From an uncultured Mycoplasmatota bacterium (lineage in GTDB: Bacteria > Bacillota_I > Bacilli_A > RF39 > UBA660): 47,085 nucleotides of DNA. The stretch lies in the NCBI GenBank assembly GCA_947365915.1, contig CANAXT010000004.1, forward strand, positions 1 through 47,085, in the 5' to 3' direction. This document shows, in pieces, positions 7,723 through 37,505 of the stretch (position 1 is the first letter of the stretch; each line of letters opens with the position of its first letter). Below the pieces are notes generated by a model. It was not told the DNA's origin. It saw nothing but the letters and a program-made list of their open reading frames with translations, and did no database searches. A program made the position numbers and the translations under genes.

Positions 7723-8430
7723 ATGATTAATTTCATTATTTGTGATGATAATCCAGACATGAGAAGCAGTATTTTAGAAGTAGTAGAATCATTTATGATT
7801 TCCAAAAATTTAGAATATAAGACTTATCTATATGATGATTACGATGAGAAATTTATGGAAATAGTAAATCAGAAACTTTCATTCAAAATTTACATTTTAG
7901 ATATTGAAACCCCGACCAGAACTGGGATTGATGTAGCACGAATCATTCGGCATAAAGATGAAGATAGTGCAATTATATTTATTACAGGTCATGAAGAATT
8001 AGGTTCTAGATTGCTATCTAAAGATATCACCTTTCTCGCATTTATTAACAAGTTTGATGACTACAAAGGAAGATTACAACTAAATATACAAAAAGCTATT
8101 TCCGCCCTGGAAAAGAAAAAAAGCTTAAAAATAGAAGATCATGGTGTTTTATATGTTTTAGCGTTTCATGATATTTTGTATATTACAAAAGACAGTTTGA
8201 GTAGAAAATCGATTGTGGTTACTGACTATGGAGAATATAAAGTATCAAAACCATTGATTTATTTTAAAGAAAACCTAGATGAAAATTTTATTCAAACACA
8301 TCGTGCTTGTATAGTAAATAAAAAGAGAATTGTGAGTATTAATAAGAAAGAACATTTAGTAGTTTTTGATAATAGAATGAAAGTGGATTTGATTTCGACT
8401 AGATTTAATGTAGAGGAGTTGGTGGAGTAG
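7723..8430 (+). CDS. agrA: AgrA-like response regulator (receiver + LytTR DNA-binding domain)
   Basis: 235 residues. The receiver domain has the acidic pair Asp8-Asp9, phospho-acceptor Asp60 in YILDIE, and a late lysine in the FINKF segment. A LytTR DNA-binding domain follows (about 135-235), with 'ILYITKDSLSRKS', 'FIQTHRACIVNKKRI' and a final F-N-V-E. The domain order and size match AgrA/ComE-type regulators that activate their own quorum-sensing operon. A strong AGGAGTG site precedes the ATG. The kinase gene starts one base after its stop, so the two form an operon. The symbol rests on the agrB and agrD genes next door. Confidence 0.88.
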   Translation: MINFIICDDNPDMRSSILEVVESFMISKNLEYKTYLYDDYDEKFMEIVNQKLSFKIYILDIETPTRTGIDVARIIRHKDEDSAIIFITGHEELGSRLLSKDITFLAFINKFDDYKGRLQLNIQKAISALEKKKSLKIEDHGVLYVLAFHDILYITKDSLSRKSIVVTDYGEYKVSKPLIYFKENLDENFIQTHRACIVNKKRIVSINKKEHLVVFDNRMKVDLISTRFNVEELVE

Positions 8431-8431
8431 T

Positions 8432-9748
8432 ATGTTAGAGGTAATTGAGAGTGTGTTAATGACTTTAGCCGTGATAGTTTCAACTTTTTATGTTTGGTGT
8501 AAACTATTGAATAAACGTATAGATTTCAAAGATAAAAGATTTTGGATTATTTTATTAGGACTAGTATCTTTTATCATATTGAATTATTATATGGTAAACA
8601 AATTTCTTAGAATTATTTCTGTAACAATTGTTTTTATGCTTTCCTGTATTTACTTGCTGAAAGTAGAATTTAAACAAGGAGTAATTGCAGCTTTGATTTC
8701 ACAAATGATGACAATGATAGCAGAAACCATATTTGTAATTGTGATTTCTGTTATTTTTAAATCTGGTGGAGAGTTTATACAAAATACTCAGTTTGCTACA
8801 ATTCTAGCAAATGTGTGTATAGCTATGATCGTAATTTTATTGGCTCAACTAAGTTTCGCTAAAAAATTATATGATAAATTGGTTAGATTTACAATGAATA
8901 TTAGTGATCTACATTTAATGTTAATTATTATTGTTTTTGTGTTTGGATTAAATATATTTTCTATGATTGCTTATTATCAATTAGATTTTAAAATGATGTT
9001 ATTATTTAATGTTGCGACTATGGTCATTTACTTTATTGTAATTATGACAGCATTTAAAAATAAAAATGATTATATTGAAATCTCAGATAAATATAACACA
9101 ACAATTACGAGCTTAAAAGAATATGAAGATATTTTAAATAATTATAGAGTCAGTAATCATGAAAACAAAAATCAGTTATTAACTATTAGAAATATGGTGA
9201 AAGGCAAAGAAAAGAATATTGTAGGTTATATTGATAAAATTGTAGAAAATAAATTACAAGATAATGAAAATTTAATGGGACAATCTATGATTATTCCAGA
9301 AGGTGGACTTAGAGGACTAGTCTATTCAAAAATGTTATTAATGAAATCTAAAAATATTGACTTTGACTTAAGTGTAGATAAATCGATTCGTACTGTTCAA
9401 CTTATTGAACTAGGAGAACAAACCATGTTAGACATTTGTAAAATCGTAGGAGTATTTTTAGATAATGCTATTGAAGCTGTGGAAAACTTAGAAGAAAAAT
9501 TTATTGATTTTGAAATGAGTGTAGAAGATACAAAATTATCAATTTTTGTTACAAACAATTATGAAGGAACCATTGATTTGGATCATATGGAAGATAAAGG
9601 ATTTAGTACGAAAGGTGGAAATCATGGTTATGGATTAACTTTAGTAAAGAGATTAGTATCAAGCAATCATTTATTAAGAAATGAAAAACATGTTTCTCGT
9701 GATGAGTTTACGCAACAATTAATTATTAATATTTCAAAATTAAAATAA
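8432..9748 (+). CDS. agrC: AgrC-like sensor histidine kinase (GHKL type)
   Basis: 438 residues. The N-terminal half is a polytopic sensor with about six membrane segments (to residue ~208), as expected for a peptide-pheromone receptor. A dimerisation helix carries the phospho-acceptor His243 (SNHENKNQLL, the AgrC pattern of His followed by Asn-Gln-Leu). The C-terminal ATPase domain has an N-box (LDNAIEAVENL) and a glycine box (GFSTKGGNHGYGLTLVKRLV). It should sense the cyclic peptide made from the agrD gene on the opposite strand and phosphorylate the regulator encoded one base upstream. Confidence 0.88.
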   Translation: MLEVIESVLMTLAVIVSTFYVWCKLLNKRIDFKDKRFWIILLGLVSFIILNYYMVNKFLRIISVTIVFMLSCIYLLKVEFKQGVIAALISQMMTMIAETIFVIVISVIFKSGGEFIQNTQFATILANVCIAMIVILLAQLSFAKKLYDKLVRFTMNISDLHLMLIIIVFVFGLNIFSMIAYYQLDFKMMLLFNVATMVIYFIVIMTAFKNKNDYIEISDKYNTTITSLKEYEDILNNYRVSNHENKNQLLTIRNMVKGKEKNIVGYIDKIVENKLQDNENLMGQSMIIPEGGLRGLVYSKMLLMKSKNIDFDLSVDKSIRTVQLIELGEQTMLDICKIVGVFLDNAIEAVENLEEKFIDFEMSVEDTKLSIFVTNNYEGTIDLDHMEDKGFSTKGGNHGYGLTLVKRLVSSNHLLRNEKHVSRDEFTQQLIINISKLK

Positions 9749-9827: not shown

Positions 9828-9947
9828 TTATTTAATTAAGCTTTTTGGACATTCAGGTTCATCAACAACCCATATCATACAAGCTTGACTTCCCATATTT
9901 GCAGATCCTAGTCCTAATGCTTTTAAAATTGAAGCAAAAAATTTCAT
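9828..9947 (-). CDS. agrD: AgrD-like autoinducer pro-peptide, 39 residues
   Basis: The frame starts at ATG 9947, with AGGAG well placed just after the agrB stop, and ends with TAA at 9828-9830. It has the three AgrD parts: an amphipathic N-terminal leader (MKFFASILKALGLG), a core with one candidate thiolactone cysteine (Cys23 in QACMIWVV), and an acidic recognition tail (DEPECPKSLIK) like the D-E-x-x-x-P-K-x-L tails of known AgrD proteins. AgrB should cleave before the acidic tail and cyclise Cys23 to the new C-terminus. Aligning the PKSL tail with staphylococcal and clostridial AgrD gives a ring of CMIWV or CMIWVV. A second Cys (32) in the tail is unusual. The mature pheromone is inferred. 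Confidence 0.85.
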   Translation of the reverse strand: MKFFASILKALGLGSANMGSQACMIWVVDEPECPKSLIK

Positions 9948-9963
9948 ATTCTACTACTCCTCT

Positions 9964-10578
9964 CTATGTATTATTTGCACTAGCAAGATATGTTTTATAA
10001 TTATCATATGGTAAATGGAAAAATTTATATACCATAGGAGAAATTAAAAAACATTGAACAATAGGTGCGAAAATGAAACAGTTGGAATAGAAACTACTAC
10101 CAACACATAAAGCAAGAATACCAAAAATTGTAGCAATAGTAGTAGCAAGAAGTTTATAAACTTTTCTTCTTGTAGGATTAACGATAGGTCTTTTATACGT
10201 ATCAGCAGGACTATTTTTATAGATAAAGAAAATCGTAATCGCACTAATAATCCATTTTACATTATCTGGTAGGATTATGTATTTACATATTAATGGAGTT
10301 AGTATAAAGATGACTGTTGAAGTTAGTAAGCAAATCCAACTTTCTGTAGCATGCAATCCAAATGAACATGTCCTAATAATATTGAATATAATCATAAATA
10401 TGATTACTTCAAAGATAATATTTAGAAACCATGCTAACAATAAAATTACGATCACCTTAGTAATAGTTAAATAGATTCCTAACAACCCATATTCAATTTC
10501 TGATATTGTCGTATCATCAATAGTAGGATTATACTTTCTAATTAACTGTAAAGAACGCTGAATCAAAAAATCTTTCAT
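9964..10578 (-). CDS. agrB: AgrB-like peptide-processing membrane protease
   Basis: 204 residues from ATG 10578 (a GTG at 10587 in the same frame is the alternative; spacing to AGGGGA slightly favours it). Membrane cysteine endopeptidase of the AgrB family. Diagnostic features: an N-terminal RSLQLIRKYNP segment, the catalytic His in CSFGLHA (His-Ala within the conserved G-x-H-A motif) and a downstream Cys within the membrane region (PLICKYI), with further membrane helices and the polar NPTRRKVYK loop. It should process and cyclise the AgrD peptide encoded 16 bases downstream on the same transcript. The agrBD unit is convergent to agrAC rather than in the usual single BDCA operon. Confidence 0.9.
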   Translation of the reverse strand: MKDFLIQRSLQLIRKYNPTIDDTTISEIEYGLLGIYLTITKVIVILLLAWFLNIIFEVIIFMIIFNIIRTCSFGLHATESWICLLTSTVIFILTPLICKYIILPDNVKWIISAITIFFIYKNSPADTYKRPIVNPTRRKVYKLLATTIATIFGILALCVGSSFYSNCFIFAPIVQCFLISPMVYKFFHLPYDNYKTYLASANNT

Positions 10579-10587
10579 TATTACCAC

Positions 10588-10905
10588 TTCTTCCCCTATT
10601 TCTTTTTCATTTTAACATATCCCCAAAACGCTAATAGAAAATCAAGTACAAAAAACTTTACAAAATAGTTCATTTCAAAATGTTAGTCAGATATCGGCTT
10701 TTTTTAATGCATTCAGGCATAAAATCACGTCATTCATGTACAAAAAAAGCAGATAAGATATAGAAATGATATAATAAAAACGCCCTTGACAGTCAATTTT
10801 GTCGAAAATTGTCGAAATTTAGAAATCGAAAATTCTTGAATTAATGACGAAAAAGGGTTATAGTTAAATTGTAGGGGAGAATAAGTGGAAGGGAGATGTG
10901 TTAGT
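10588..10905. other. Intergenic region between agrB and the cold-shock gene
   Basis: Divergent spacer of about 320 bases. TATAAT at 10770-10775 and TTGACA at 10786-10791 are present but not in a standard pair. Three direct copies of TCGAAAATT/TCGAAATTT lie at 10802-10810, 10812-10820 and 10826-10834, and AATTTTGTCGAAAATT can fold. Two related CAAAAT...GT motifs (10661 and 10676) lie on the agrB side. If transcription starts at the 10770 promoter, the cold-shock mRNA has a leader of over 100 bases, as is common for csp genes. Confidence 0.4.
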
Positions 10906-11118
10906 GTGACAGGAAAAGTTAAATGGTTCAATAATGACAAAGGTTTTGGATTTATCGAATACAAAGATAATGAAGATATCTTTGTTCATTATTCAGCCAT
11001 TCTATCGGAAGGCTACAAAACTTTGGTTGAAGGTCAATATGTTGAGTTCGAATTAGTAAGAACCGACAAAGGACTTCAAGCAAAGAACGTAGTAGAGATT
11101 AAAACTGCCTTAGTATAG
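10906..11118 (+). CDS. Cold-shock domain protein (CspA family)
   Basis: A 70-residue OB-fold single-strand nucleic acid binding protein. It starts with the family's TGKVKWFN, followed by RNP1 KGFGFIEY and RNP2 DIFVHYSA, then a normal family ending. It acts as an RNA chaperone in the cytoplasm. I chose GTG 10906 because the family begins at this point (M-TGKVKWFN). An in-frame GTG at 10885 with a good AGGGGAG site would add seven residues and cannot be excluded. Its terminator overlaps the stop codon. Confidence 0.93.
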
Positions 11119-14689: not shown

Positions 14690-14720
14690 TGTCAACATTT
14701 CCTAATTGTTGGCATTTTTT
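14690..14720 (+). terminator. Terminator-like hairpin before the integrase
   Basis: TGTCAACA (14690-14697) pairs with TGTTGGCA (14707-14714), with one G-U pair, followed by TTTTTT. It would stop read-through from secA into the element. Confidence 0.65.
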
Positions 14721-14756
14721 GTCTTTACAAATAACTTTGTAAGAGATGTTGAAGTT

Positions 14757-15623
14757 ATGGTAAAAGTACAAATTAAAAAAAGAGGGAAGTATTATCAATA
14801 TATGTTTGAAATAGCTCCTCAAGACGGAAAAAGGAAGTGGATAACAAAGTCTGGTTTTAAAACAAAACCAGAAGCAGAGCGGGAAGGATTAAAAGCACTT
14901 AGTGAGTATTTAGAAACAGGTCATAGTTTTAAACCATCAGAAATTTCATATAGTGATTATTTAGATTATTGGATGGAGGAATATTGTTATATAAATTTAA
15001 AGCACCGTACTATTGAAACATATAAGTATATAATAAAAAATCATTTAAAACCTAGATTAGGGTTTTATAGAATATCTCAAATAACAACAGCAACAATACA
15101 AGAAGCAATAAATGATATATATGTCGAAAGAGGTTTTGCAAAAAGTTATATGAAAAGTATACTTAAAGTTATAAAATCTTCTTTTGATTATGCGGCAGAA
15201 ATAGTAAATTTTATAAAATATGATCCTTCTATAAAAGTTAAAGTTCCAAAGTATGATGAACCTGAAGGAGATCCAGTACATATTTTTACTAAGGAAGAAA
15301 TAGACTTAATATTTAATAGTGTTAAGAATAATCATTGCGTTTATTATGCGTTTTTAACTGCATATCATACAGGACTTCGTATATCTGAAGTGTTTGGACT
15401 AACTTGGGAAGACATAGATTTAGAAAATAAAAAGATTCATGTTAGAAGAAATATTGTTAAAAAAAATCAAGCAGGTGGTACTAAAAAAAGACATATAAGT
15501 GGAAATTCTACTACAGTATGGTATTATGGTACATGTAAAACAGTCAATAGTTATAGAACAATAGATATAGGGGATACACTTGTAACTGCACTAAAGAAAT
15601 ATAAAGAGGAACAAGGAATATAA
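14757..15623 (+). pseudogene. Tyrosine integrase, C-terminally truncated
   Basis: 288 residues from ATG 14757 (weak GAAG ribosome site). An N-terminal AP2-like arm-binding region (KRGKYYQYMFEI, KWITKSGFKTKPEAE) and a SAM-like core-binding domain are present. The catalytic domain starts with the first catalytic Arg in AYHTGLRISEVFGLTW. The protein stops at KKYKEEQGI, before the HxxR, LGH and Tyr boxes, so it lacks most of the active site and cannot act alone. The family is Tn916-like ICE integrases, usually near 390 residues. A second integrase fragment at 18974-19790 repeats the Arg region, so the two pieces come from different genes rather than one split gene. Confidence 0.8.
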
Positions 15624-36437: not shown

Positions 36438-37505
36438 ATGGAAAAAATATATTTAAGAAAAGATGGAAGGTACTCTATGAAATATAAAAAGGGAATCAAA
36501 GAAGATGGTTCAATAAAGTATGGATATATATATGGTAAAACAGAAAAAGAGGTATTAAAAAAATATGAAACAACAAAAAAAGCAACAATTGATAAATCAC
36601 TATTTAGTGGAGACATATATAACTGGCTAAAAAGTGTCAAAATATCATGTAAAAAATCTTCTTACTCAAACTATGAATATACAGCATACGCACATTTAAT
36701 ACCAGAATTTGGTACATACAAAAGAAAACAAATCAATAAAAGTTTAATTAATGAATTTACTGAGAAAATGTTAAACAGGGGATTTGCCCCCAAAACAGTA
36801 AAAGACATGTTGATCATATTACAACAAATTTTAAAATACCACAATATAAGAATAGACATTACCATGCCAAAAATTCCTAAAAAAGAAATTCAAATATTAA
36901 CAAAAGAACATCAAAAACGATTAGAACAAAAATTAAAAGATACCATCAATGAAGATTACTTTGGTATATTTCTTTGTCTATATACTGGACTTAGAATTGG
37001 CGAATTATGTGCATTAAAATGGGAAAATATTGACTTAAAAAACAATATTATTAGGATAGAAAAAACATTAATACGAGTAAAGAATTATGATCAAAAGGCA
37101 AAACAGAAAACAATAGTAATATTAGATGAACCAAAATCAGTTTCATCTATTAGAAATATTCCCATTCCCAATTTTATCATTCCAATATTAAAAAAATTGC
37201 AAAAAGAAGATAACTGTTTCTTTTTAACTGGAAAAACAAAATTTATGGAACCTAGAAGTTATACAAATCATTATAAAACGATTATGAATTCTATTAACTT
37301 AAATTATAACTTTCATGCATTAAGACATACATTTGCTACCAGATGTATTGAAAATGGTTGTGATCCCAAAACACTAAGTGAAATTCTAGGCCATTCCGAT
37401 GTAAAAATAACACTAGATAGATATGTACATCCTAGCTTTGATAATAAAATTAAAATGATGAATAATCTCATTCCAATGTGTCATTTATCTAAAATCGATT
37501 CCTAA
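36438..37505 (+). CDS. Tyrosine recombinase/integrase, complete
   Basis: 355 residues. An N-terminal arm region (IYLRKDGRYSMKYKKGI) and SAM-like core-binding domain (about 55-140) precede a full catalytic domain: Arg in YTGLRIGELCALKW, HALRHTFATR (His293, Arg296), LGHSDVKITLDRYVH with the Tyr nucleophile, and the usual ending. All catalytic residues are present, unlike the two integrases in the secA element. GAAAGGAG precedes the start. No attachment repeat was found nearby; the amidoligase operon downstream may be its cargo. Confidence 0.92.
   Translation: MEKIYLRKDGRYSMKYKKGIKEDGSIKYGYIYGKTEKEVLKKYETTKKATIDKSLFSGDIYNWLKSVKISCKKSSYSNYEYTAYAHLIPEFGTYKRKQINKSLINEFTEKMLNRGFAPKTVKDMLIILQQILKYHNIRIDITMPKIPKKEIQILTKEHQKRLEQKLKDTINEDYFGIFLCLYTGLRIGELCALKWENIDLKNNIIRIEKTLIRVKNYDQKAKQKTIVILDEPKSVSSIRNIPIPNFIIPILKKLQKEDNCFFLTGKTKFMEPRSYTNHYKTIMNSINLNYNFHALRHTFATRCIENGCDPKTLSEILGHSDVKITLDRYVHPSFDNKIKMMNNLIPMCHLSKIDS

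Follow-up and report, generated by a model that had tools for sequence, protein, structure and literature searches.

An agr quorum-sensing locus with a predicted six-residue ring and a putative AgrA-driven cold-shock promoter in a family of uncultured Bacilli

In Staphylococcus aureus, AgrB, AgrD, AgrC, and AgrA are encoded in a single agrBDCA operon, the signal has a five-residue ring, and the divergent promoter region beside agrB gives RNAIII. In staphylococcal AgrD, a DE pair directly follows the cleavage site, and agr systems are known for a variable core and sensor combined with a fixed tail. Rings of five residues are found in staphylococci, Clostridium perfringens, and Listeria monocytogenes, and a six-residue ring (CVLVTL) in C. 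acetobutylicum (PMC12312760); the five-residue rings are far more common (PMC10301443). In C. acetobutylicum, agrBD and agrCA form distinct operons (PMC12312760, PMC10301443), and a LanM-like effector gene (CA_C0082) lies downstream of the locus. LytTR operators consist of two direct repeats of about 9 bp, about 21 bp apart, which lie a few bases 5' of the -35 element and are often accompanied by an extended -10 element (PMC6193735). Our search of the literature found nothing relevant on AgrD in Tenericutes, and the lineage studied here had no agr study in the literature searched.

Here, we analyzed a stretch of 47,085 nucleotides (hereafter, the window) from the small genome of an uncultured Bacilli bacterium. 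The window contains a complete agr gene set, in which agrB, with its His/Cys pair, lies beside agrD and is accompanied by agrC and agrA (Table 1). The reading that best explains the whole, and that we consider quite probable from the sequence evidence, is a working agr quorum-sensing system with a six-residue thiolactone and an AgrA-driven cold-shock promoter.

Table 1. Features of the agr locus and its divergent region in the window
Feature	Position	Strand	Basis or remark
agrA, LytTR response regulator	7723..8430	+	domain profiles
agrC, membrane sensor and GHKL kinase	8432..9748	+	domain profiles
agrD, 39-residue signal precursor	9828..9947	-	translation, TIGR04223 profile, codon pattern in congeners
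agrD stop	9830-9828	-	
agrD tail, DEPECPKSLIK	9863-9831	-	
agrD core, CMIWVV	9881-9864	-	
agrD leader	9947-9882	-	
agrD Shine-Dalgarno, GAGAGGAG	9957..9964	-	
agrB, membrane protease/cyclase	9964..10587	-	PF04647, E 6.5e-31; alternative ATG start at 10578
Predicted AgrA (LytTR-type) operator, GCATTCAGGCA-N10-TCATTCATGTA	10709..10740	+	21-bp period; motif search, held-out test
-10 element, TATAAT	10770..10775	+	29 nt past the second repeat, facing the cold-shock gene
Two predicted Spo0A-type boxes, TGTCGAA	10800..10816 (10800-10806, 10810-10816)	+	core from PMC3485338
Second promoter-like site of the cold-shock gene, TTGAAT-17-TATAGT	10836..10864	+	promoter scan, overall no richer than shuffles
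Divergent cold-shock-domain gene, predicted agr target	10906..11118	+	putative GTG start

The agrA and agrC genes are on the opposite strand from agrB and agrD, and thus agrAC and agrBD are convergent. The same orientation of agrC was found in all 138 family loci with agrC in view. The separate operons resemble those of C. acetobutylicum, but here they converge, and a cold-shock-domain gene diverges from agrB. As for the LanM-like effector, PF13575 had no match in nine genomes, and the controls gave no match either. The locus shares with S. aureus the set of AgrB, AgrD, AgrC, and AgrA, a tail starting with DE, and a divergent promoter region beside agrB. It differs from S. aureus in its two convergent operons, in the predicted ring of six residues, and in the divergent product, which is a cold-shock-domain protein instead of RNAIII. 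His79 and Cys86 of AgrB, seven residues apart, were kept in 157 of the 159 family AgrBs. At one family locus (L032, 6003-9329), agrC was present in two tandem copies, each broken into frames of 302 and 138 aa; a frameshifted gene may truly have been duplicated there, or the assembly may be at fault. No match to a known structured RNA was obtained in the intergenic regions at the Rfam gathering thresholds.

The earlier note on this DNA had taken a 39-codon frame, with no strand given, for an AgrD. This identification was borne out, and the gene is on the minus strand, next to agrB, with its start 16 nt 3' of the end of agrB. The frame (9947..9828) translates as MKFFASILKALGLGSANMGSQACMIWVVDEPECPKSLIK and scored 28.9 bits (E 9e-7) against the NCBI model TIGR04223 (quorum_AgrD), whose curated cut-off is 19, so that a standard model detects it; the narrower, staphylococcal AgrD model of Pfam gave 18.7 bits, below its cut-off of 22.7. 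The protein has an amphipathic leader (judged by eye only), a Cys-containing core, and an acidic, proline-bearing tail, as expected of TIGR04223 precursors. Among six congeneric species, pN was 0.26 for the six core codons and 0.12 for the leader, and in the tail (the last 11 codons) all 44 pairwise differences were synonymous. The lack of amino-acid changes in the tail despite many silent ones indicates that the agrD frame is translated and under selection, and a chance open frame is rejected by the profile score together with the codon pattern. The identity of AgrC to that of one congener was 26-36% over residues 1-200 (the membrane sensor) and 60-86% over the remainder. AgrD and AgrC thus show this agr pattern, the core and the sensor varying and the tail remaining constant.

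We also considered a decayed or untranslated agrD, with the locus silent or the signal coming from elsewhere. Relatives without a detected agrB exist (146 of the 386 family genomes), but the tail is under purifying selection, the Shine-Dalgarno sequence and the agrB, agrC, and agrA frames are intact, the congeners keep the same layout, and a protein search found only one AgrB match in the genome; this possibility is thus extremely improbable. A second agr locus in the genome was also rejected by the single AgrB match.

The family sample consisted of 386 genomes from 150 genera; AgrB was found in 240 of these genomes and in 110 of the genera, and 149 distinct AgrDs were read from the fetched loci. 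The frames were picked by a D/E-like residue followed by E, with a Cys or Ser in the preceding eight residues; because the Cys or Ser was admitted anywhere in this stretch, a spacing of six was not forced. Cys was located at -6 from the conserved D/E-E pair in 135 of the 149 AgrDs, and the remainder had Cys at -7 (nine), Ser at -6 (four), or Cys at -5 (one). The +1 position after the core was D or E in all 149, and the +2 position was E in all, which was partly imposed by the picker. The hydrophobic residue at -1 varied among L, I, F, V, A, M, and W. In the AgrDs of L043, L189, L079, and L052, Ser replaces the ring Cys, and their products are predicted to be lactones, not thiolactones.

In the window, AgrD reads C-x5-DE, with five residues between Cys and DE, and the six residues from Cys to the putative cut before DE correspond to the C. 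acetobutylicum-type spacing. The claim that there is one residue more between Cys and the tail than in staphylococci and C. perfringens therefore agrees with the tabulated five-residue rings (PMC12312760). The core had also been called unusual. This holds in comparison with staphylococci and the like but not within the family, where the same spacing is the norm, and six-residue rings had already been described. A species-specific oddity is rejected by the 135 AgrDs of the same spacing, and the "unusual" core is a family rule. The six-residue size, already known as a variant in Clostridium, is shown here, as judged from the predicted sequences, to prevail throughout a family of uncultured Bacilli.

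In a tree of the AgrB sequences, the ring classes needed 8 changes, versus 13.8 with shuffled labels, and none of 200 shuffles reached so few. Of the nine AgrDs with a seven-residue core, five (L030, L035, L169, L172, and L186) are accompanied by AgrBs that form one well-supported clade. Both observations suggest that ring size tends to pass down together with AgrB.

Our best prediction for the mature signal is the six-residue thiolactone CMIWVV. The cut was placed before D29 because DE directly follows the cut in staphylococci. By this analogy, AgrB would cleave the 39-residue AgrD between V28 and D29, the thiol of Cys23 would be joined to the carboxyl of V28 to close the ring, and a second protease would trim the leader as the peptide leaves the cell. 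The earlier note had offered a ring of CMIWV or CMIWVV, with either a six-member ring or a shifted cut; the conserved DE, which comes immediately after the core, favours CMIWVV over CMIWV. If the family AgrB cut one residue earlier, leaving V28 on the tail, the ring would be of the far commoner five-residue size, and the position of the cut is not fixed by sequence alone; however, such a cut would precede the variable hydrophobic residue at -1, and the invariant D/E-E pair would be shifted by one across the whole family relative to its place after the cut in staphylococci. We therefore regard the shifted cut as unlikely and retain CMIWVV.

The second Cys pointed out in the tail is indeed present. 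However, this position was Met in 60, Cys in 53, Ala in 17, and Thr in 9 of the 149 AgrDs; such swaps leave a ring role for the second Cys unsupported, and it probably has none. Two CPBP (MroQ-family) membrane proteases are encoded in the genome. They were not taken as the leader protease, since 11 of 14 control genomes also encode members of this widespread family and neither protein has a link to agr.

Of 76 family loci, 70 have a cold-shock-domain gene divergent from agrB; hpf and secA come next after it in the window and in the two congener loci that were read over a long stretch. Two integrase-like frames (14706-15623 and 36438-37505 of the window), located 3' of secA, suggest at least one mobile element. 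For the region between agrB and the cold-shock gene, a two-block motif search was performed with 82 upstream regions, including some duplicate fetches, and the later tests were performed with 75. Only a period of 21 bp was favoured, with a score of 668 versus 507-542 at 18-20 and 22-25 bp and 427-440 in shuffles. Most repeat sites in the family loci are 110-136 nt away from the agrB start; in 32 of the 40 good sites a -10 hexamer is found 28-30 nt past the repeat on the cold-shock side. After five-fold held-out training, 27 of the 75 regions reached a score of 9, compared with 0.5% of shuffles; on the opposite strand, 8 of 75 did so, also above the shuffles, and thus the signal is partly not strand-specific. 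The operator was clear in only about a third to half of the loci. A general promoter scan gave no more matches than in shuffled sequence.

Ten relatives with no agrB detected had a readable region upstream of the cold-shock gene, and the repeat was missing from nine of them. A rank test comparing the training set with held-out regions favours the former and is biased; the figures to rely on are those from the held-out training. In an exact pattern search of the window's genome, the operator was found at the agr locus only. The one exceptional relative (L199, 2119-3528) has cold-shock-domain genes twice in tandem, followed by the LytTR-like repeat and then by an agrA-like gene, with no agrB between its cold-shock gene and the latter; it has perhaps lost agrBD secondarily. 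The retention of the agrA-like gene there is what one would predict of a repeat that serves AgrA.

The repeat in the window has the geometry of LytTR operators: its direct repeats have a period of about 21 bp and lie immediately 5' of the -35 element. It resembles CATTTCAGACA, compared with ACCACTTAY in operators of the ComE, HdrR, and BrsR type, which likewise have direct repeats of about 9 bp with a period of about 21 bp (PMC6193735); unlike these, it shares its region with Spo0A-type boxes. We predict that the family-wide 21-bp direct repeat is a LytTR (AgrA)-type operator, which is new here. It is possible, though somewhat doubtful, that the repeat serves another regulator or controls agrBD instead of the cold-shock gene: the repeat occupies the space between divergent genes, and autoinduction of agrBD would be expected in agr systems. 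The LytTR-like period, the spacing of the -10 hexamer on the cold-shock side, the near absence of the repeat from relatives without a detected agrB, and the agrA-like gene near the repeat in L199 argue against it and for an AgrA operator directed at the cold-shock gene.

In the system that we propose, the receptor for the peptide would be the fast-evolving membrane half of AgrC, and AgrC would then phosphorylate AgrA. AgrA, through LytTR, would bind the direct repeat between agrB and the divergent gene and activate at least the promoter directed at the cold-shock gene; we infer both the binding and the direction of regulation from the sequences. Autoinduction is assumed, as the agrBD promoter has no identified operator.

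The sequence TGTCGAA is the core of the Spo0A box (PMC3485338). The boxes in the window lie between the predicted AgrA promoter and the cold-shock gene, and the tandem pair occurs once in the genome assembly, upstream of this gene. In the 75 regions, TGTCGAA occurred 45 times, biased to one strand, versus 0.75 times in shuffles. Spo0A was encoded in all nine genomes checked, with a Spo0A_C match of E 7.8e-40 in the window's genome. Among the ten relatives in which agrB was not detected, five had the boxes, which are thus independent of agr. As the AgrA-type repeat and the Spo0A boxes lie 5' of the same gene, agr and Spo0A may converge on the cold-shock gene.

We tentatively propose that this family has fixed a six-residue signal, with an inherited seven-residue form in one AgrB clade, and, rather than to an RNAIII-like RNA, has wired agr to a divergent gene for a cold-shock-domain RNA-binding protein, with Spo0A boxes in its promoter region. 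What makes the locus of interest is the series of ring sizes together with the predicted output, not the single peptide. In about 150 natural AgrB/AgrD pairs, the predicted ring is nearly always six residues, the exceptions being nine rings of seven, one of five, and four with serine, and such a series makes the determinant of ring size in AgrB directly testable. If our reading of the operator holds, the output of quorum sensing in this family would pass through an RNA-binding protein.
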